Assembly (NCBI RefSeq): GCF_009856865.1
Contig: NZ_WVUD01000034.1
Location: forward strand, 1 to 42,520
Direction of reading: 5' to 3'
DNA: 42,520 nucleotides
DNA from: Solidesulfovibrio aerotolerans
GTDB lineage: Bacteria > Desulfobacterota > Desulfovibrionia > Desulfovibrionales > Desulfovibrionaceae
How positions within the stretch are numbered: position 1 is the stretch's first letter; each line of letters starts with the position of its first letter. The translations under genes were made by a program, and so were the position numbers. Positions 3,342-42,520 of this stretch are shown here, piece by piece. The notes under the pieces are model-generated. The model was not told where the DNA came from. It made no database searches and was given only the letters and a program-made list of their open reading frames with translations.

Positions 3342-3565
3342 GCGGTCTTGGACAGGGTGGTCTGTGGGGCAGGGATAGCCGCAGCCTGCTTGTCGGCCCA
3401 GGACGCGGGCTGGTGGCAGACAGGTGATGATCTCGGAACAGGCGCTCCGGTTGCACCCCCTGCCTGTACGGCCCAGGAGGCGGGTGGTCGGCCCAAACGC
3501 ATCCTGGGCACCGCCCGCCCTGAGGAACCCGGGGCTGCGGTCTGTGCGAAAGTGGGAAGCCGTCC

Positions 3566-4579
3566 CTATTTTTGGTTGGCCAGCAAGGCGATGAGGCGCT
3601 TGACGATGTCGGCGGGGTAGCGCCGGCTGTCGTCGAAGAGCTTTTTGGCGGCGGCCAGCGGGTCCATGGCCGGGGCGTAGGTCCGTTTGGTGATCATGGC
3701 GCAAAACGAATCCACAACGCCGGTGATCAGTCCCAATTCCGAAATGCCGCCCACGGTCAGCTTCTGCGGATAGCCGGACCCGTCGATGCGCTCGTGGTGC
3801 TCCGACACGCAGCGTTCCATCTCCGTGAATTTGATGTCGATGCGCGAAAGCATCTCGTAACCGGCCATGGTGTGGTTGCGGATCTTTTGCATTTCATCGG
3901 GGAGCAGGGCCTTGGTCTTGTCGCGGATCATGGATGGCACCCGGGTCATGCCGAGGTCGTGCAGAAACAGGCCGAGCAGGGAACGATCCAAAATATTGCG
4001 GGCGTTTTTGGTATCGCGAAACGTCTCGGACTGGCAGGCCAGAAACAGGTGCAGGCCAAAAAGACCGCAGTTGACGGCGTGGTTGGCCAGACTGTGGGTG
4101 GCGTGCAGCCGCTTGGCCAGCGCTTTGGCCCGGTTGAAATCGTCCCAGACGTATTCGGTCAGCACCAGCACGTCTTCGCGCACTTTGTCGAACACCAGCC
4201 GCACCGGCTGATCGAAAAATGACTCCATACGCCGGGTCAGCGCGATCTGAAAGATGTCGGCGATCTCTGATTCGGTCAGGTGCTTGTCCAGCAGCACCAG
4301 ATCAAGCTGGTAGCTGATGTGCTTGACATAGACCGAATGATCGGCCCGGGACACGAAAATGACGCCCTGGGACACCAGCTCGGCCAATTCCTGGGACTGT
4401 TCCTTGGAAAGCCGGTCGCCAACCTTATAATAGGACGCAATACGCGAAACCGGTTCCAGAAAACGGTAGATGTTAAGCGGCGGCCGGAGTTTGTTGAAAC
4501 TCTGGAGAATCTCCGGGTTGATCTGGTAATATTCTTCTTCAAGCCCGGCCGGAATTTCCACTATCGCCCTCTCGCGCAT
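3566..4579 (-). CDS. HD-GYP domain protein, probable c-di-GMP phosphodiesterase
   Basis: A 337-aa protein from the ATG at 4579, chosen over an upstream GTG at 4621 because GGAAGGG lies just before the ATG. The N-terminal 130 residues are a variable sensory or scaffold region without membrane segments. The C-terminal half is an HD-GYP domain with the metal and substrate motifs present: histidines in HATHSLANHAVN, the HD pair in LFLHDLGMTRVP, the later histidines NHTMAGYEML and SEHHERIDGSGYP, and the GYP tripeptide itself. HD-GYP proteins hydrolyse c-di-GMP to pGpG or GMP. All key residues look intact, so activity is plausible. It is transcribed away from the dcw cluster and converges on the CBS gene. 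Confidence 0.88.
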   Translation of the reverse strand: MRERAIVEIPAGLEEEYYQINPEILQSFNKLRPPLNIYRFLEPVSRIASYYKVGDRLSKEQSQELAELVSQGVIFVSRADHSVYVKHISYQLDLVLLDKHLTESEIADIFQIALTRRMESFFDQPVRLVFDKVREDVLVLTEYVWDDFNRAKALAKRLHATHSLANHAVNCGLFGLHLFLACQSETFRDTKNARNILDRSLLGLFLHDLGMTRVPSMIRDKTKALLPDEMQKIRNHTMAGYEMLSRIDIKFTEMERCVSEHHERIDGSGYPQKLTVGGISELGLITGVVDSFCAMITKRTYAPAMDPLAAAKKLFDDSRRYPADIVKRLIALLANQK

Positions 4580-20035: not shown

Positions 20036-21262
20036 ATGGCCAGGTCGGAACTTATCGTCGGACTCGATATCGGCACCACCAAAATTTGTGTGGTCGTCGG
20101 CGAAATCTCGCCCGAAGGCGTGGATGTGGTGGGCATTGGCACCAGCCCCTCCACGGGCCTGCGCAAGGGCGTGGTGGTCAATATCGAGCAGACCGTCCAG
20201 TCGATCAAGAAGGCCCTCGAAGAGGCCGAACTCATGGCCGGTTGCGAAATTCGCTCGGTCTATGCCGGCATTGCCGGCAGCCACATCAAAGGCTTTAACA
20301 GCCACGGGGTCATCGCCGTCAAAGGCGGCGAGGTCGGCCCCCGGGACATCGAGCGGGTGATCGACGCGGCCAAGGCCGTGGCCATCCCGCTGGACCGGGA
20401 GGTCATCCACATCCTGCCCCAGGAATTTATCGTCGATGACCAACGCGGCATCGCCGATCCCCTCGGCATGGCCGGGGTGCGCCTGGAAGTGCGCGTGCAC
20501 ATCGTCACCGGAGCCGTCACCAGCGCCCAGAACATCATCCGCTCCTGCCACCGGGCCGGGCTGGACGTCTCCGACATCGTGCTGGAATCGCTGGCCTCGT
20601 CCAAGGCCGTGCTGACCGGAGAGGAACGCGAAATCGGCGTGGCCCTGGTGGACCTCGGGGGAGGGACCACCGATCTCGCCATTTTCGCCAACGACTCCAT
20701 CAAGCACACCGCAGTGCTGGCCCTTGGCGGCACCAACCTGACCAACGACATCGCCTTTGGCTTGCGCACGCCCATGGCCTCGGCCGAAAAGATCAAGATC
20801 AAGTATGGCTGCGCCCTGGCCGAGATGGTGCCCAAAGACGACGTCATTGAGGTCATGAGCGTGGGCGGACGCGAGCCCCGCCGGCTTTCGCGCCAGGTGC
20901 TGGCCGAAATCTGCGAACCGCGCGTGGAGGAGATGCTGGCCCTGGTCGATCAGGAGCTCATCCGCTCCGGCATGAAAAACCAGATCGGCGCAGGCGTGGT
21001 ACTCACCGGAGGCACCGCCCTTATTGAGGGCATTCAGGAACTTGGCGAACAGATTTTCAACCTGCCCACGCGCATCGGCTATCCCGACAAGGTCGGGGGG
21101 CTTAAAGACGTGGTCAACAGCCCCATGTACGCAACAGCGGTGGGGCTTCTCATGTACGGTGCGGAAAAAGAAGGCGTGGAACAGCGCTTCCGCATCCGGG
21201 ATGAGAACGTGTTCAACCGCATTCTGGGGAGGATGCGGAAATGGTTCGTGGACGTGAAATAG
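20036..21262 (+). CDS. ftsA: Cell division protein FtsA
   Basis: A 408-aa actin-like ATPase that tethers FtsZ filaments to the membrane. The first phosphate loop is [15 protein letters not shown]. The 1C/SHS2 region follows, then the second nucleotide motif [13 protein letters not shown] (about residue 206) and the adenosine loop [13 protein letters not shown]. The C-terminus [14 protein letters not shown] is the expected amphipathic membrane-targeting helix. The start is the ATG at 20036 (GGGAG upstream) rather than an upstream in-frame ATG at 20000. ftsZ starts 55 bp downstream. Confidence 0.97.
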
Positions 21263-21317: not shown

Positions 21318-22649
21318 ATGGACTATTTGGAACTGGATCAGGGCTCCAACGCCCGTATCAAAGTCGTCGGCTGCGGCGGCGGCGGCGGCAACGCCGTTGA
21401 GAACATGATCACATCGGCTATGTCCGGCGTCACTTTTATTACTGCCAACACCGATATTCAGGCCTTGCAGCGTTCCCAGGCCGAATATCGCATCCAGCTT
21501 GGCGACAAGCTGACCAAGGGCCTGGGTGCCGGTGCCAATCCCGATGTCGGCCGCGACGCCGCCCTGGAGAGCATCGACACCATCCGTGCCGCCATCGGCG
21601 ATTGCGACATGGTCTTTGTCACCGCCGGCATGGGCGGCGGCACCGGCACCGGTGCTGCCCCGGTCATCGCCCAGGTGGCCAAGGAAGCCGGCGCGCTCAC
21701 CGTGGCCGTGGTGACCAAGCCCTTCTATTTTGAGGGCAAAAAACGCCTGCTTTCGGCGGAAAAGGGCGTGCAGGCCTTGCGGGACGTGGTGGACTCCATC
21801 ATCACCATCCCCAACGACCGGCTCCTGTCGCTGGCTTCGAAAAAGGCCACCTTCATCGAGATGCTCAAAAAGGCCGATGAAGTCCTGTATTACGCCGTCA
21901 AAGGCATTTCCGACCTCATCATGGTCCCGGGCCTGATCAACCTCGACTTTGCCGACGTCAAGGCCGTCATGAGCGAGATGGGACTGGCCATGATGGGCTT
22001 TGGAACGGCGCGCGGCGAATCCCGCGCCCGCGAAGCGGCCCTGAAGGCCATCACCAGCCCGCTGCTGGAAGACGTCACCATCGATGGAGCCAAGGGCGTT
22101 CTCATGAACATCACCTGCGGCCCGGATCTGACCATCGAGGAAGTCGATGAGGCCGCCTCCACCGTCACCGAGGCCGTCCACGAAGATGCCAAGGTCTTTT
22201 TCGGCACGGTCTTCGACCCCGACGCCACCGACGAAATGCGCATCACCGTCATCGCCACCGGCATTGAGTCGGCCATGCAGCGCGGTATGCCCGTGCAGCA
22301 AAAGCGCGAAGAGCAAAAGCCCATCGAGGTGCTCACCTCCATGCTGCCGCGCCAGAAAGCGCCCATGCAGTCTGCCCCGATGCAGCATCAGCACCAGCCC
22401 CAGCAGCACCACCACCAGCAGGGCGGCGGCACCGGCGGCGTGCAAAGCCCGCGCAGCGTGCGCGTCTTAAACGGCCAGGGCAACGACTACAACATCCCGG
22501 CCTATCTGCGCAAAGGCACCAAAAAAGGCGGACCTGAAGCGGCGCTTTCCCAGCCGATAATAAAGTCCCAGCCGGTTGGCGAGGAAGAATTCATCTTCGA
22601 TGAGGAGGAATTCGAAATTCCCTCCTTCATCCGCATGCAGGCGGACTAG
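21318..22649 (+). CDS. ftsZ: Cell division protein FtsZ
   Basis: A 443-aa tubulin-like GTPase that forms the division ring. It starts [20 protein letters not shown] (ATG 21318 with GGGGGAG upstream; an in-frame ATG at 21300 is an alternative). The tubulin signature [13 protein letters not shown] is near residue 105, and [11 protein letters not shown] is the T7 loop region. A long linker contains a His/Gln-rich run (about residues 355-375). The C-terminal peptide [12 protein letters not shown] (432-443) is the FtsA-binding motif. A second, similar motif NIPAYLRKG occurs at 392-400, so the tail carries two C-terminal-peptide-like elements. Confidence 0.97.
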
Positions 22650-25361: not shown

Positions 25362-26132
25362 ATGGATAACCCGCAGGACAATACGACCACCGACGCCAAA
25401 AAAGGGAGCGGCTCCCTTGGCAGTCTGGGCCTGTCGCTTTCCGACAGGGAAAAAAAGAATCTCATGACGTTTCTTTCCATCGGGATCATCCTGGTGGAAT
25501 TTGCCGTCACGGTTGCTGCCGTGTGTTACGGCATCATCAAATCCCAAAAGCTCCCCGACGGCACCATCGAGTTCCAGTTCCCCTGGATTCCCTACTCCGT
25601 GGCCCTGATCCTGGCCCCGGTGGCCATCATGCTGGTGGTCAACATCATCGGCATGGGCTTTGGCCGCTTTTTCAAAGGCGAGCCGGCCATGGACGAAGAG
25701 CAGATGCGCTATATGCCCGAGCGCCTGCGGCGGCTCATCGCCCTGTCCCGGGGCCTGCCGTCGATCATTTTGCTGGGCGGCATGGTGCTGGTCGGGGGGG
25801 CGCTGTACTACATCGACGCCGTCATCCAGGCGATCCTTCGCATCGGCGATCATGTGGAAGTCATCGCGCCCTGGGTCATGGCCGGGCTGGTGGCGGCCTG
25901 GTGCTTAAGCTACCTCGTGCGCATGTGGTTTTTGTACAAGACCCGGCGCATGCATGAGGAATTCGCCTTTCGCCGCGAAGTCCTGGAGCGCACGGGTATC
26001 GTCATCGTAGACAATCACAAGCATATCGCCGCCGATGGCCGCACCATCGGCGAACACGGCAATGTGCTGCCCGGGCGCATCATTGATGTCCTGCCGCCCG
26101 GGGAGTCCGACGCCGACAAGGACGCGTCATGA
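25362..26132 (+). CDS. Four-TM membrane protein of unknown function
   Basis: A 256-aa protein. A polar N-terminus of about 35 residues is followed by four predicted membrane segments (about 36-60, 75-100, 131-155 and 168-192) and a soluble C-terminal tail of about 60 residues (RRMHEEFAFRREVLERTGI onward). I recognise no family motif. The tail contains an NHKHIAADGRT segment with two histidines. The ATG at 25362 lacks a strong ribosome binding site, but the frame uses the high-GC codon pattern of its neighbours and the stop overlaps the next gene by 4 bp. Membrane topology is the only firm inference. Confidence 0.7.
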   Translation: MDNPQDNTTTDAKKGSGSLGSLGLSLSDREKKNLMTFLSIGIILVEFAVTVAAVCYGIIKSQKLPDGTIEFQFPWIPYSVALILAPVAIMLVVNIIGMGFGRFFKGEPAMDEEQMRYMPERLRRLIALSRGLPSIILLGGMVLVGGALYYIDAVIQAILRIGDHVEVIAPWVMAGLVAAWCLSYLVRMWFLYKTRRMHEEFAFRREVLERTGIVIVDNHKHIAADGRTIGEHGNVLPGRIIDVLPPGESDADKDAS

Positions 26133-36612: not shown

Positions 36613-37002
36613 TCAGTCATCCTCGGGCAGCATAATCGTCAGCACTGGCTCAGCGTTGTCACCAGGGCCGATGTGGGCGATGATATCAACGGTTTCAGAT
36701 CGTCCTGGCCCCATCAGGAACGAGACTTTGAAGTACACCCTATCTGTCCCTTTGCTGGACCGGGCGGCGAACATCGCCAGTGTCAGCAGATCATGGAGTC
36801 GGCCAGCCCGGGATTGCCCATAACTCCCGTCCAATCCGGTAGGAACTTCAACATATTGGTGGTAGAGGTTATCGGTAACGACGGTGTGGACTTTGAACCC
36901 GTGGGCTTGGGCATCGGTGGAGATGTCAATGAGGACGCCATCTTCGATAGCTTGTGCCCTAGTGTAGCTGTAGATGACGTTCCAGTCTTTATCGGTGGTC
37001 AT
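36613..37002 (-). CDS. DUF6573-like hypothetical protein
   Basis: A 129-aa soluble protein. Its start, VIYSYTRAQAIEDGVLIDIS, closely fits the DUF6573 pattern known from phage, plasmid and island genes (SYTRAQAIxDGVLxDV). The C-terminal half (TDRVYFKVSFLMGPG, VLTIMLPEDD) is beta-rich as in that family. No biochemical role is established for the family, to my knowledge. GGAGATACC lies before the ATG. It overlaps the upstream small gene by 14 bp, so both are one operon. Its presence supports a mobile origin of this region. Confidence 0.7.
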   Translation of the reverse strand: MTTDKDWNVIYSYTRAQAIEDGVLIDISTDAQAHGFKVHTVVTDNLYHQYVEVPTGLDGSYGQSRAGRLHDLLTLAMFAARSSKGTDRVYFKVSFLMGPGRSETVDIIAHIGPGDNAEPVLTIMLPEDD

Positions 37003-37216
37003 TTTCGGTATCTCCAGTTTCGGCAGTTAAAATAGCATCGAGTTTTTGACGGAAACTTTGACACAGTGTAATTCCAACATCGGCGTATGAGCGCGTTAGT
37101 TGACCGTATATTTCAACAGAACTGGTATCCATTATTTTGAAAAGCTGTTCAATCGGACGAAACGCATTGAATATTTCGTCCTTAGTTTGAAGAAGATCAT
37201 GATCTTTCTGGACCAT
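36989..37216 (-). CDS. Hypothetical 75-aa protein
   Basis: A small helical protein starting MVQKDHDLLQTKDEIFNAF, with no recognised family. A strong ribosome binding site AAAGGAG lies five or six bases before the ATG, and its 3' end overlaps the DUF6573-like gene by 14 bp. The two are therefore likely co-expressed. The amphipathic sequence suggests a helical bundle or a protein-binding role; this is inference only. Confidence 0.55.
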   Translation of the reverse strand: MVQKDHDLLQTKDEIFNAFRPIEQLFKIMDTSSVEIYGQLTRSYADVGITLCQSFRQKLDAILTAETGDTENDHR

Positions 37217-37300
37217 ATGGGCTCCTTTGCTTTTTAAGCAGAAGGATAGCCTGGACCAGTGGGGCGGTCACGGGAGTTTGGGATAGGTTGGCAATTGGAC

Positions 37301-37800
37301 TGGAGAAAGCCCTATGGAAATCGGACGTTGGTTGTAGGATGCGATTTCCTGGGATTTTGGCCCGGGGGGAACCCCAAGGCCCCGGCCATTGGAAAAGGCC
37401 AAGGAACGGGGCCGGTAGAGGGCAGGGGAGGGGTGTACGGGGAAAAGACCAACCCCCAAATTTTCCCAAAGGGACGCTTCGACTAGTTCCCTGAAGAAAG
37501 TTTCGCTATTTTAGGTGGTTGATCAGTGCAGGAAGCTGCTTTTTAGATTTTCAGCTGATTGGGCAGTGAAATCGGTCTATTTCGAGCTGGATCGGCGACA
37601 ACGTCGGTGGATGAGAATTTGGACCAAAAACGCTGGTGTCGGATCGCAGGATCCTGCGAATTTTAAGTCCCGTGATGGTGCTACAATCATTGAAACGGCC
37701 CTGTCCTTGGTCCAGGAGCGTTGGGTAGGGCTAAAAGTACTGTTAAGCATCAGTAATGGCACATTTTTATAAAAACGAAATTTCTTTCGTTTTTAGCAGT
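37301..37800. repeat. Copy 1 of ~490-bp diverged direct repeat
   Basis: It aligns with 39908-40381 in the same orientation (offset about 2.6 kb). A 32-bp stretch is identical (37334-37365 and 39941-39972), as is CCGGCCATTGGAAAAGGCC. Further shared blocks are TTTAGATTTTCAGCTGAT, CTTGGTCC and CAGTAATGGCACA. The first 170 bp are GC-rich inside an AT-rich region. A 16-bp perfect palindrome TCGCAGGATCCTGCGA lies at 37644-37659, and a terminator-like hairpin at 37771-37794. No conserved protein is evident. It precedes the receiver gene. Confidence 0.8.
37771..37794 (+). terminator. Terminator-like hairpin at end of repeat copy 1
   Basis: AAAAACGAAA (37771-37780) and TTTCGTTTTT (37785-37794) are perfect 10-bp arms around TTTC. 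The A and T runs allow termination on either strand. The same element, less perfect, closes repeat copy 2 at 40357-40380. Confidence 0.6.
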
Positions 37801-37894
37801 CGCAGTTCCAGTGAATCTGGACAACGTCCTATGAAAATGGGATATTGTAATGATACTGCGGTCCACTGTTTTCTTGGCCCAGGAGGAGGCGCAA

Positions 37895-38308
37895 GTGAAG
37901 GTGTTGGTGGTCGATGATGATGTCGCAAGCCAAATTATTATGAAGAGCATTTTGAATAGTTATTGCCACGTAGATGTAGCGTCTGGTGGTTCAGAAGCAG
38001 TTCAGTTCTTCATTCAATCGTTAAAGGACAAAAGACCCTATGATCTGATTTTTTTGGATATCATAATGCCTGGAATGGATGGACAAGAAGCGCTTAAAAA
38101 TATTCGCAGCATAGAAAAAGAAAACAATATCGACAAGCTGAAAGAGACTGCCGTTGTAATGCTTACAGTTCTCGATGATCCAAAGAGTGTAGTCGAAGCT
38201 TACCAGTCTGGTGACGCAACGTTTTATCTGACAAAACCAGCCATAAAACAAGTCATTATGAAAATGATTAAAGATTTTGGCGGAGTCACGAAGATTGAGT
38301 CAGTGTAG
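37895..38308 (+). CDS. Stand-alone response regulator receiver (CheY-like)
   Basis: A 137-aa single receiver domain. The GTG start at 37895 is chosen because AGGAGGAGG precedes it by five bases. An ATG at 37850 in the same frame would add 15 residues that do not belong to the fold. It has the acidic pair in VLVVDDDVAS, the phospho-acceptor Asp in LIFLDIIMPGMDG (about residue 54), the conserved Thr in VVMLTVLDD, and Lys in YLTKPA. No output domain is attached. It is followed by a diguanylate cyclase gene after 37 bp, so it probably passes a signal to, or is paired with, that enzyme. The AT-rich codon use differs from the dcw genes. Confidence 0.88.
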   Translation: MKVLVVDDDVASQIIMKSILNSYCHVDVASGGSEAVQFFIQSLKDKRPYDLIFLDIIMPGMDGQEALKNIRSIEKENNIDKLKETAVVMLTVLDDPKSVVEAYQSGDATFYLTKPAIKQVIMKMIKDFGGVTKIESV

Positions 38309-38345
38309 TGAAAAAGTAGGATTAAAATTGAAAAGGATGGTTCTG

Positions 38346-39416
38346 ATGGCAGAATCTTGCCCTGTTGTTAAGTGCAAAATACAGAATGTCTGTTCCGAAA
38401 TCCATAAAATTGGATATGGGGATGATCCTTCCTGGCTGGCGATTGTCTTAATCGTAAGAAATCTATTGGCAAAATTTTCCTGTTTTACGGAATCCCAGAA
38501 GACTCTTTTGAAAAGCTGGGTATTTTATGAATTAAAAAAGAAAGATAACTCAGAGGAACATTTGGGTGTAGTGATACAGCGACTGGAACAGTTTTTTGGA
38601 GACAACAAGAAGTCAAAGGATTTAAAGAACCAATATGTTCGTCAGAATGAAATCATGGGTGCCATGACAGGTGCTATTGATGATTTTTTGCGGGAGTTGT
38701 TTTTTTCAGAGTCTTTTCGGAGTAATCTAGTTGCAAAATATGGCAACGAGTCACTTGAAGTGCTAAACAAAGATGAAGACCCAGCATTGATTGTAAAGAA
38801 AATGAAAGTCGTGGTTACAGAAATGCTGACTGCGTACAGGCACGAAGCTGAAGAGTGGCAACAGAAAGCAAAAAGTTTAGAGCAGATGGTCAACGTAGAT
38901 TCGTTACTTGCTCCGTTACATAATCGAGGAGCCCTTGAAAATCATTTACGCACTGAAATTTCAAATTGTCAGTCAACTGGCTGTAAACTATCTGTATTGA
39001 TGATGGACATTGATGATTTTAAAGAAATTAATGACGGATATGGTCATCAGGTCGGCGACGATATCCTTAGGGCTTTGGCAAAGATAGTTCATAGTCATGC
39101 TTCAATGTATGGATGGTATGCGGCTCGTTACGGGGGAGATGAGCTTGTCATCGTTTGTAAATCGTCAGCAGATGAGGTTCTACTCCATGCAGATGCAATT
39201 AGAATCGCTGTGCAAAATTATGATTTTTATCCGAGAAAAGATGGGAAAGTTCAGGGGAGTGGCGTTAAGTTTACGGTCTCCATTGGTGTTGGTGAATATA
39301 TTCAGGGAATGACTTCTGATGATCTGGTTGATGTTGCTGACAGGGCTATGTATAAAGTTAAAGTGGCTGGGAAAAATGATGTTGCTGTATTCGAACCAGC
39401 TGAAAATATTTCGTAA
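38346..39416 (+). CDS. Diguanylate cyclase (GGDEF family)
   Basis: A 356-aa soluble protein. The N-terminal 190 residues are helical and hold no named sensor domain. A short coiled coil (QQKAKSLEQMVNVDSL) leads into the GGDEF domain with LLAPLHNRGALENHL, MMDIDDFKEINDGYGHQVGDDIL, the active-site loop RYGGDELVIV (about residue 262) and VSIGVGEY. GGDEL is a functional variant of GGDEF. No RxxD inhibitory site is visible upstream of the loop, so product inhibition may be absent. It makes c-di-GMP from two GTP. The ATG at 38346 has AAGG nine bases upstream. It forms a two-gene operon with the receiver, bracketed by the long repeats. Confidence 0.9.
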   Translation: MAESCPVVKCKIQNVCSEIHKIGYGDDPSWLAIVLIVRNLLAKFSCFTESQKTLLKSWVFYELKKKDNSEEHLGVVIQRLEQFFGDNKKSKDLKNQYVRQNEIMGAMTGAIDDFLRELFFSESFRSNLVAKYGNESLEVLNKDEDPALIVKKMKVVVTEMLTAYRHEAEEWQQKAKSLEQMVNVDSLLAPLHNRGALENHLRTEISNCQSTGCKLSVLMMDIDDFKEINDGYGHQVGDDILRALAKIVHSHASMYGWYAARYGGDELVIVCKSSADEVLLHADAIRIAVQNYDFYPRKDGKVQGSGVKFTVSIGVGEYIQGMTSDDLVDVADRAMYKVKVAGKNDVAVFEPAENIS

Positions 39417-39486
39417 AATCTTTGCTGTGCATTCAATTTTCGAAAGTAGAACTGTGTGTTTGCTGTATTCCAGTGAAGATCGTCTG

Positions 39487-39762
39487 TTAGGCTGCAAAGT
39501 TTCTCTTTGTCTTGTTGGCGAGATGGGTTGCATGGTGTTGCGAGTTTGGGTTTGAAAAATTTGCATAGCTTATGATGCATTGATTTTTAAGCCTCAGTTG
39601 TAGTTGCGTATTGTATTGCTTGGCTACTGATTGCGCTGTCATGATGCTTTCCAAACCGTTCCCTGGTCCAAACCGAAGACAAACATTTTGAAAGTTATCT
39701 AGGTATACTTGGCAGTTACATTGTTCTCGGAGATGTTTCAGGGGGTCGAAATGGTCTTTCAT
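39487..39762 (-). CDS. Hypothetical 91-aa protein
   Basis: The ATG at 39762 follows a near-consensus ribosome binding site AAGGAGGT by eight bases, the main reason to accept the gene. The protein begins MKDHFDPLKHLREQCNCQVY and contains NVCLRFGPGNGLESIMTAQ, then a polar tail with several Asn, His and Gln residues. No family is recognised. It converges on the diguanylate cyclase gene. A minus-strand TATAAT (plus-strand 39859-39864) and an inverted repeat at 39870-39889 lie upstream as a possible promoter and operator. Confidence 0.5.
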   Translation of the reverse strand: MKDHFDPLKHLREQCNCQVYLDNFQNVCLRFGPGNGLESIMTAQSVAKQYNTQLQLRLKNQCIISYANFSNPNSQHHATHLANKTKRNFAA

Positions 39763-39858
39763 CAAAGGGACCTCCTTGGGATTGGCTTTTCTCTTTACAC
39801 GACTGAGCCCGTTGTGCCAAGGTTTACTTGGATAAATTTTACTCTGATCGAAAATGTA

Positions 39859-39889
39859 ATTATAGTTGGCTAATCTAGATTTCGATTAG
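39859..39889 (-). promoter_or_regulatory. Candidate promoter/operator of the 91-aa gene
   Basis: On the minus strand a perfect TATAAT (39859-39864) sits about 95 bp before the start codon. The region just upstream of it holds the inverted arms CTAATC (39870-39875) and GATTAG (39884-39889), placed where a repressor could block the -35. No good -35 hexamer is present. Confidence 0.4.
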
Positions 39890-39907
39890 AACGAACTGGC
39901 GTGGCGT

Positions 39908-40381
39908 TGGACAAAGCCCTATGGAAATCGGAAGTTGCGTGTAGGATGCGATTTCCTGGGATTTTGGCCCGGAGGGAACCCCCAAGTCCCCGGCCATTGG
40001 AAAAGGCCCAGGAATGGGCCGGTAGAGAGCAGGAGATGGGTGTCCAAGGGAAACGCAAGCCCAAATTTATCCCCGGGGAAGGGCTTCAGCTGTTTGCTCA
40101 GAGAAAAACTGTGACATCGCCGACTTTTGAAAAGTCCAGTTTACTGGAACTTTAGATTTTCAGCTGATGGGTAGAAAGTTCTCTAATTGGGTCTGTTTGT
40201 CATTTCGAACCAAAAGCGATGGTTTCCGATGGCATAATTCTGCCATTTTCAGGCCCTGGTAACGACCAACGACACTGAAAATGGCCTTTTCTTGGTCCTT
40301 GAGCATTAGGTCGGGTGAGTCGTGGCATTAATGCCCAGTAATGGCACACTTTTTTCAAATACGAAATTTCCTTCGTTTTTG
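39908..40381. repeat. Copy 2 of ~480-bp diverged direct repeat
   Basis: It is the same orientation and order of blocks as copy 1 at 37301-37800. At the position of the copy 1 palindrome it has a different inverted repeat, ATGGCA/TGCCAT around TAATTC (40229-40246). A further palindrome GGCATTAATGCC lies at 40324-40335 and the terminator-like hairpin at 40357-40380. It follows the receiver/GGDEF operon and the 91-aa gene and precedes the small regulator gene. Confidence 0.8.
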
Positions 40382-40429
40382 ACTGGACGAAATTTGAAGT
40401 TTTAATAGTAAAGCCGACCTTTGGTCGGG

Positions 40430-40681: not shown

Positions 40682-41002
40682 ATGCCTGGAAAAGAATCGA
40701 AATTCGAAGCAGTGAAACTTCGTACCATGATCACCGAAGGGAAGACCGCGCAGCAAATCATGGATGCTTTCGGGATAAAAAAAACAAACCTGAAAGCTCA
40801 TCTCCTGAAGTTAATGCAGATGGATGAAAAGTTCTATCGAATCGAAGGGATGGAAGATAGAGCAGCTTCAGGAAATGTAAAGTTCTCAAAGAATGGATTG
40901 CGGTTGTCTCCAACCCTTATGGGAAATTACGGATTTGAGTTTGGAGACGAATTCAAAGTATCGAGTCTTGAAGACAGGAAGATTGTGCTGGAACAGAAGT
41001 AG
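40682..41002 (+). CDS. Small HTH plus AbrB-like regulator
   Basis: A 106-aa protein with AAGGAG nine bases before the ATG. Residues about 15-50 (MITEGKTAQQIMDAFGIKKTNLKAHLLKLM) look like a helix-turn-helix. The C-terminal 35 residues (LRLSPTLMGNYGFEFGDEFKVSSLEDRKIVLEQK region) look like a SpoVT/AbrB-type swapped-hairpin fold. A DNA-binding regulator is the likely role. It is preceded by direct repeats and a long hairpin, possible targets, and closed by a strong terminator at 41026-41064, so it is a single-gene unit. The exact family is not recognised. Confidence 0.6.
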   Translation: MPGKESKFEAVKLRTMITEGKTAQQIMDAFGIKKTNLKAHLLKLMQMDEKFYRIEGMEDRAASGNVKFSKNGLRLSPTLMGNYGFEFGDEFKVSSLEDRKIVLEQK

Positions 41003-41094: not shown

Positions 41095-42303
41095 TTAAAA
41101 ACTTTTTTTCTGTTGAAATATTTGTTCTATTTCATTCTTTAAGTCTTCAAGAACGATTGGCTTGGATAGGTAGCCATTCATGCCATGAGCCAGAAAGTTT
41201 TCTTTGTCTCCAGCCATGGCGTGAGCTGTCAGAGCTATGATAGGTATTTTTGAGAATTTTTCGTTCGAATTCCTTATAGCGAGAGTTGTTTCTACACCAT
41301 CCAAGTTGGGCATTTGTATATCCATCAGAATTAAATCGAAATTTTCAGCTTTAAGCTGCTTTATAGCTTCAGTTCCATCATTTACGAATTTTGAATTGTG
41401 ACCAATTTTTTTGACGAAACTAGATATCGTTAATTGGTTGACTTTGTCGTCTTCAGCAATAAGTAACTTTAGGCTTGTGATTATTTGGGGTTCAGTGTTG
41501 AGGAATTGAGTCATGTCTTCTACCATAGAGGGTTCTGCCGTTGTTAACGGTATTGCAATGCAAGTGGTAGTTCCTCCTCCATCAATGTTGTCGACCGTAA
41601 TGCTGCCTCCCATGATCAGCAGTAGTTTTTTAACGATGGAGAGTCCAAGTCCGACTCCTCCATATTTACGGGTCAATGAACCATCGACCTGTGTGAAAGG
41701 AACAAAAATTTCATCGAGCTTATCTTCAGGAATTCCAATGCCTGTATCAGATATTTCTATGAAGACGTGTATTATTTTTCCTGCCGTGAGTGAATCAATC
41801 GAGATAGATACGCGCCCCTGTGGCGTAAACTTGATCGAATTTCCGAAGATATTGAAAATAATTTGCCTGAGCCGACCTGAGTCGCCATAGACAATCTCTG
41901 GGATATTATTTTCAACGTGCGTATGTAATTCTATTTTTTTTGAAGTTAACTCGGTGATGAAAGTGTTAATAACGTCTTCGATAAGGTGGCTAATGTTAAA
42001 TCCATGGTTTTCTAAGGTAATATCACCTTGTTCTATTCTAGATAAATCTAAAATATCAGAAATCAATTTTGTTAAATTTCTGCCGGAACTCAAAGCAATG
42101 TCAATATATTCTCTTTGTTCATGGTCCGTCTTCGTTGATTCGAGCAATTGAAGCATACCCATGATACCGTTTAGTGGTGTCCGGATTTCATGACTCATGT
42201 TTGCTAGAAATTCAGATTTTGACTTATTAGCAGACTCCGCTCTTTTTTTTGCGTTTTCAAGTTCGATCTCTCCCAGTTTGCGAGTTGTAACATCGAGAAA
42301 CAT
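41095..42303 (-). CDS. Hybrid histidine kinase, N-terminus cut by an insertion
   Basis: The frame encodes 402 aa from an internal Met: HisKA with [19 protein letters not shown], a HATPase domain ([39 protein letters not shown]) and a C-terminal receiver ([29 protein letters not shown]). The frame stays open upstream through [20 protein letters not shown], which looks like the end of a PAS domain, until it meets a stop at 42397-42399 inside an IS21-like end. The original gene was therefore longer and its sensor part is lost or displaced. The remaining kinase core keeps its motifs. Whether it is still expressed is unknown. Confidence 0.85.
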
Positions 42304-42394: not shown

Positions 42395-42520
42395 TGTCAA
42401 ACAGCACCGAAAAGTGACCCCCAATCAGCGTCCAAAATTGACCCCCTCGATGTTGATGTCCGCCCTCCATCTAATCGGGGGGGGGGGGCGCCTCATTGGC
42501 TTCTGTGCTTGAGCCTCCAG
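42395..42520. mobile_element. End of an IS21-family-like insertion sequence (partial)
   Basis: The junction starts TGTCAAACAGCACC and contains two tandem units, GAAAAGTGACCCCC (42409-42422) and CAAAATTGACCCCC (42433-42446), 24 bp apart. Terminal TG plus repeated AAAAnTGACCCCC units are the hallmark of IS21-family ends, where the transposase binds. It interrupts the hybrid kinase frame. The transposase genes would lie beyond the window. A run of 12 G lies at 42477-42488. Confidence 0.6.

Follow-up and report, generated by a model that had tools for sequence, protein, structure and literature searches.

R, a conserved repeat of about 500 bp at the joints between signaling cassettes in Solidesulfovibrio integrative elements: a candidate ground for cassette exchange

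The stretch of DNA analyzed here (the window) comprises 42,520 nucleotides of Solidesulfovibrio aerotolerans (family Desulfovibrionaceae; contig NZ_WVUD01000034.1, positions 1 to 42,520) and harbors two copies, R1 and R2, of a repeat designated R, which enclose the genes of a stand-alone receiver, a diguanylate cyclase, and one small protein. R has sharp ends, opens the cargo zone of integrative elements directly after a small gene termed s3, and recurs between the units of that cargo. Gene neighbors across R are exchanged more than neighbors within a unit. On balance, these traits are probably best explained by R being a conserved module-boundary spacer of Solidesulfovibrio integrative elements, at which homologous recombination swaps cassettes. 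Judged from sequence comparison, the likely mechanism is recombination between homologous copies of this structured spacer, and the predicted hairpins of R may also work as RNA.

Exchange of gene neighbors across R

The cargo zone past s3 holds genes for methyl-accepting chemotaxis proteins (MCPs), CheW/CheV, kinases, receivers, GGDEF and HDOD-EAL proteins, and flagellins. R stands at many of the joints between these interchangeable sensory and chemotaxis blocks and therefore looks like a swap boundary; in its arrays, a single repeat of constant orientation divides units that can replace one another. Although its neighbors change, R holds a nearly constant spacing to each type of neighbor. The first R lies 70–91 bp from s3 in 14 of 15 cases (84 bp in the window), and the distance from R to the gene MPYKD is 14–17 bp in eight of nine. 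The gene to the right of MPYKD encodes an MCP in all nine cases, with no R between, and on the left side of MPYKD, always across R, five different neighbors are found in eight cases. Likewise, s3 has 10 different next genes in 15 cases on its right side, across R. When pairs are formed from two occurrences of one cargo gene on different contig pieces (the backbone helix-turn-helix (HTH) gene and spurious open reading frames being dropped), the neighbor is the same in 38 of 263 pairs where R intervenes versus 231 of 517 where it does not, or 135 of 332 when the latter are limited to families that ever border R.

Individual joints illustrate this exchange. Genome G001 also has the receiver–GGDEF–small gene unit of the window, placed between CheW and HDOD-EAL, and in genome G005 the receiver is separated from GGDEF by R. 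On contig C52 of S. aerotolerans, the GGDEF–small gene pair comes after HDOD-EAL across R. Contig C103 of the same genome reads DUF6573, s3, one R, HTH, and kinase, with the receiver/GGDEF unit absent; the original prediction on this DNA had proposed a search for such an absence beside a single repeat, and C103 supplies it in the same surroundings. At five mapped joints the order is s3–R–HTH, R being only partial at one of the five.

Identity breaks and similarity tracts

In seven of nine inspected pairs of copies, which were picked for similar flanks and whose break positions were read from windows, identity changes inside R, with high identity on one side. The break points differ, being located about 30, 30–75, 137, 150, or 380 nt into R or in its last 30–40 nt. 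For the copy C52_20647 and one from S. alcoholivorans, the right flanks are 99.3% identical over 599 bp and the R copies 70%, close to the background of 71.9%. R bodies are block mosaics. Strict tracking of R with its left or right gene was tried as a description of these copies, and the association is only weak.

Of 383 similarity-tract ends, 51 (~13%) lie in R versus 26.0 expected, an approximately twofold excess that none of 1000 shifts reaches. The corresponding figures are 27 of 177 versus 12.2 (0 of 1000 shifts) at 94% identity and 150 bp and 17 of 122 versus 8.2 (13 of 1000) at 94% and 300 bp. Taken together, the spread of the breaks and the tract ends in R are fitted better by homologous recombination along R than by one fixed site.

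Distribution and noncoding nature of R

An R profile yields 75 matches above 35 bits in the fetched stretches of 11 Solidesulfovibrio genomes, of which 28 are nearly complete (beginning at model position 60 or earlier and ending at 480 or later), with up to 18 matches, partial ones included, in one genome. The genome of S. aerotolerans (4.6 Mb, 161 contigs) has R on contigs C52, C103, and C114 as well, and BLAST gives no match below E 0.5 in that genome outside these contigs and the window. Among the genomes searched, R is found in one genus only, taken to be Solidesulfovibrio. A DNA search of 198 genomes locates it in 10, S. aerotolerans among them, all of that genus. A covariance model built on 97 positions of R, run with stricter filters at which weak matches can be lost, matches 11 of 288 family genomes, all Solidesulfovibrio (11 of the 14 genomes of the genus), and none of the 274 family genomes outside it; under the same filters, it matches 10 of 297 genomes drawn from the class, again all Solidesulfovibrio.

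The repeat corresponds to no described family in the sources consulted. Against Rfam, the best match over R1 is ylbH at 17.3 bits (cut-off 50), and 11 R loci give no match at E ≤ 1. One R copy used as query has no match in phage and plasmid sequences, and five pattern matches in viral contigs look fortuitous, their scores against the R profile being 5–8 bits. No description of R appears among the results of literature searches on Desulfovibrio/Solidesulfovibrio islands, repeats, boundary linkers, and cassette elements. The suggestion that the window repeats are copies of an undescribed noncoding element is supported by the many copies elsewhere, their sharp common ends, and the lack of Rfam, phage, or plasmid matches. 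Many dispersed copies with sharp common ends in Desulfovibrionaceae genomes had been named as support for an element, and their lack, pointing to a simple local duplication, as refuting.

The repeats had also been described as devoid of a conserved protein, and the family agrees. Internal gap runs in 21 near-full copies number 219, 95, and 37 for lengths of 1, 2, and 0 modulo 3, respectively; a coding function is ruled out by gap lengths that are mostly not multiples of three and by the lack of a conserved frame. The longest open frames in R exceed those in shuffles somewhat (mean 103 versus 79 codons).

R keeps one orientation along an element, whatever the strand of the genes, in all but one match of the contig set, a count in which pieces with a single R match agree trivially. 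The exception (48 bits) and four weaker matches (18–26 bits) are partial R-like pieces on the opposite strand, which the maps place in the other arm of elements (C103 reverse-complement 25771–26002 and 20392–20568; G008 map 3515–3704; G001 map 21871–22047; G007c map 552–626), meaning that R may face outward in each arm.

Secondary structure

The consensus fold of 21 copies has a z of −5.5 versus 30 column shuffles and is stronger on the + strand (−115.0 versus −102.5). In the named structure, 86.2% of cells pair versus 84.6 in shuffles (0 of 500 reaching it), and both-sided pair changes number 45 versus 25.4 (0 of 500), covariation counts being inflated by related, recombining sequences. Best supported are a terminal hairpin and two internal hairpins, and the long-range helices pair well and vary mostly on one side. 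Because the relatedness and recombination of the copies inflate the pair-change counts, a function of the modeled hairpins is likely, and R is at most a candidate whole-length RNA.

Proposed mechanism and alternative explanations

Under the spacer explanation, tandem and co-resident elements would offer many R copies, between which homologous recombination, as crossover or conversion, could take place anywhere along ~500 bp. Such events would add, delete, or swap whole signaling cassettes and leave genes unbroken; recombination of R1 with R2, for instance, would remove the receiver–GGDEF–small gene unit and leave the single-R layout seen on C103. R would be transcribed, and its hairpins and 3′ end would separate the units, which we infer to be why it is kept as a structured 500-bp block. 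A more far-reaching version is tentative and somewhat doubtful, namely that R arrays are a homology-driven counterpart of integrons, in which a structured, transcribed repeat of ~500 nt would terminate or insulate each unit and at the same time let an integrative element recombine whole sensory and cyclic di-GMP modules among its tandem copies at one tRNA site.

Several observations weigh against the spacer explanation. With regard to joints, three further s3–R gaps are ~18, 100, and 425 bp, the HTH gene has 11 different right-hand neighbors in 16 cases with no R in between, and the right side of the small gene is without R in two of five cases. With regard to recombination, there is no clear break in two of the nine inspected pairs, R copies with one common neighbor are only slightly more alike than others, and among the 16 pairs with homology on both flanks, only 7 have an R that is less similar than either flank. 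The role is not exclusive, since 332 of the 383 tract ends lie outside R, and at 96% identity the count in R (11 of 81 versus 6.0) is reached in 61 of 1000 shifts. With regard to structure, shuffles are not clearly beaten in two of five measures, pairs with both-sided changes (15 of 500) and pair types (61 of 500). A one-column slide of partners keeps 43 of the 45 both-sided changes, with 52% of cells paired versus 86%. RNAalifold gives −17.5 kcal/mol on the gapped alignment, with a covariation term of −0.27 and mainly local helices, and a terminator scan that asks for three G–C pairs listed the internal hairpins but not the terminal ones, which have few.

The strongest alternative, although unlikely, is that R is mainly a functional structured RNA, a leader or terminator of each unit that duplicates with its genes, shuffling being a by-product or otherwise caused. 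The 3′-end hairpin with its T run, the compensatory changes in hairpins, the strand-biased consensus fold that beats shuffles, and the uniform orientation all agree with it. However, the gene next to R is often on the reverse strand with its 3′ end toward R (MPYKD, eight copies), so that R is not simply a leader for the gene that follows; many truncated copies are retained, no Rfam model matches, and the promoter scan finds nothing beyond chance. Much less probable is an integron-like site-specific recombination site with a fixed crossover, e.g., GGGGTGTCC (model ~137), served by the tyrosine recombinases of the element. Many truncated copies begin or end at model ~131–153, and the elements do carry two tyrosine recombinases, yet break points in close pairs are spread along R, and GGGGTGTCC, the crossover candidate taken from truncated copies, does not hold up as the sole point. 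R also lacks similarity to the attachment (att) site of the element, and R as that att site is ruled out on the same ground. Of the recombinase pair on C52, the only one compared, INT-L scores 76.9 and INT-S 21.6 bits against the integron integrase model TIGR02249, whose cut-off is 265; the best PDB match of INT-L is IntI4 (2.5e-14). Slightly more improbable still is that R itself is a small transposable element with a history of many insertions between genes. Its dispersed copies and sharp ends would suit this, but the joints at which mapped copies stand are of the same kinds, one element family and one orientation account for nearly all copies, the flanking genes are exchanged, and R has no coding capacity.

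Comparison with known systems

Similar to attC in integron cassette arrays, R forms a direct array in which exchangeable genes are separated by one structured, uniformly oriented repeat. attC sites are 57–141 nt long, whereas near-full R copies span 449–531 nt and delimit units that contain a single gene or several, on either strand; in place of the fixed crossover point of integrons, breaks are spread along R in the seven pairs that show them. In contrast to an insertion sequence or composite transposon, the bracketing repeats hold no transposase and no conserved frame. The module-boundary linkers of lambdoid phages resemble R in that a conserved sequence at module joints provides homology for exchange, but these linkers are short and varied and R is one structured family of ~500 bp. 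Several of the relatives' elements resemble tRNA-site islands with tyrosine integrases in their location at tRNA-Val(GAC) before thrS, their direct end repeats, and their tandem arrangement; they differ in the repeated R spacers inside the cargo, and the window copy lies away from the tRNA-Val site. Like R, the RNAs OLE, GOLLD, ROOL, and HEARO are hundreds of nucleotides long, structured, and often on mobile DNA. Unlike them, R matches no Rfam model, and its transcription is putative.

Integrative elements that carry R

The gene maps show a backbone of two tyrosine recombinases, an HTH gene, and a Prim-Pol protein, followed by DUF6573 and s3; four of the mapped elements also have a sigma-54-type ATPase (cluster of four) between Prim-Pol and DUF6573. 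The element ends are marked by a repeat of about 170–257 bp with the 5′ half of the tRNA-Val(GAC) gene, and the intact gene stands before thrS. tRNA-Val(GAC) is called in 3 of 10 scanned stretches, the three with the thrS-side end. Because the ends carry an upstream stretch together with the 5′ half of the tRNA-Val gene and the intact tRNA is on the thrS side, the element seems to provide this tRNA with its promoter region and 5′ half. The relatives' elements thus combine integrases, a tRNA target, and direct end repeats, as expected of tRNA-site integrative elements. Genome G005 (three contigs) has three tandem elements between 1060061 and 1171451, and R also at two other places. Element ends were positioned at L033:1401–1740 and at G005:C2:1060061, 1091656, 1122796, and 1171451.

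Other features of these elements include a backbone protein (L031:3817–4707) that matches a phage queuine tRNA-ribosyltransferase (phrog_887, 1e-17) and adjoins an unassigned protein, and a 606-aa sigma-54 activator-type ATPase (L031:6321–8141). Flagellin-like cargo genes of 503–726 aa occur at L032:15875–17386 and in the G001, G005E, and G007c maps, shorter in G008, some of them close to DUF6573. A related element, whose Prim-Pol is 50% identical, is found in another genus (G022:C52:25001–55000) and in one genome of Solidesulfovibrio (G001:C8:160001–189004); it has only an R fragment (model 18–111, 31 bits), beside a flagellin gene.

The repeats and genes of the window

R1 and R2 had been reported as two diverged direct repeats of ~490 bp in the same orientation, and BLAST confirms them at 70% identity (E = 6.1e-48). 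A repeat search of the window pairs 37301–37455 with 39908–40062 at 79%, plus shorter in-register blocks, and direct reading gives a longest identical block of 33 bp, where 32 bp had been claimed. The contrast in composition likewise holds: the region between the repeats has 36–42% GC and the first third of each repeat 55–58%, most 250-bp windows of 32–35 kb being at 58–66%. The enclosed genes are those expected, with the receiver and GGDEF domains recognized by Pfam and the small gene on the reverse strand (Table 1).

Table 1. Features of the window around R1 and R2
Feature	Position	Strand	Evidence or remark
R1, full length, between s3 and receiver	37295..37798	+	Family profile 480 bits, model 1–505
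R2, full length, between small gene and HTH gene	39903..40385	+	Family profile 499 bits, model 2–506
Degenerate third R 5′ start, directly before the receiver gene	37817..37895	+	E 2e-4, weak
R1 3′-terminal hairpin and T run	37771..37794	+	Repeat search; both-sided stem changes across copies
R2 3′-terminal hairpin and T run	40357..40380	+	Repeat search; both-sided stem changes across copies
R1 internal hairpin	37644..37659	+	C–G/G–C swap among copies; listed by terminator scan
R2 internal hairpin	40135..40148	+	Pair changes across copies; listed by terminator scan
Stand-alone receiver	37850..38308	+	Response_reg, Pfam PF00072, 6e-19
Diguanylate cyclase, GGDEF domain	38346..39416	+	Pfam PF00990, 3e-34; signature reads GGDEL
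Small gene, 92 aa	39487..39765	-	Comes after GGDEF in 4/4 occurrences; no match in Pfam search
s3, 75-aa gene, left edge of cargo zone	36989..37216	-	R next in 15/16 called s3 genes after removal of one spurious open reading frame (14/16 before)
DUF6573 protein, element backbone	36613..37002	-	Pfam PF20213, 4e-26
Small protein HTH0, right of R2	40682..41002	+	Sub-threshold Pfam HTH matches; open reading frame cluster of 27
Histidine kinase with receiver, adjoining HTH gene	41095..42303	-	Pfam

The receiver likely starts at a GTG near 37895. A promoter-like match at 37818–37846 lies inside the third R start; the promoter scan gives 4 matches overall versus 6.5 in shuffles. The window has no tRNA in a tRNA scan and no member of the integrase or primase clusters of the element, and by reading of its open reading frames, its R locus is away from the tRNA-Val site, downstream of a cell-division gene region. 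Positions 1–126 and 42395–42520 share exact stretches of 124–126 bp with the ends of contigs C52 and C103, which are probably assembly overlaps at repeated sequence.

The original prediction had also raised a composite mobile unit carrying a cyclic di-GMP (c-di-GMP) signaling cassette. Its notion of a cassette stands, in that the enclosed genes act as an exchangeable unit. The repeats, however, encode nothing and have no single recombination site, and the mobile unit is the larger element, whose integrases and primase lie outside the window.

Biological significance

Exchange of cassettes at R would account for the way in which these sulfate reducers assemble and refresh large chemotaxis and c-di-GMP gene sets. 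It would provide a testable case in which cassettes are shuffled via long conserved spacers and not through a dedicated recombinase of the integron type, for which the R copies would be both marker and substrate.

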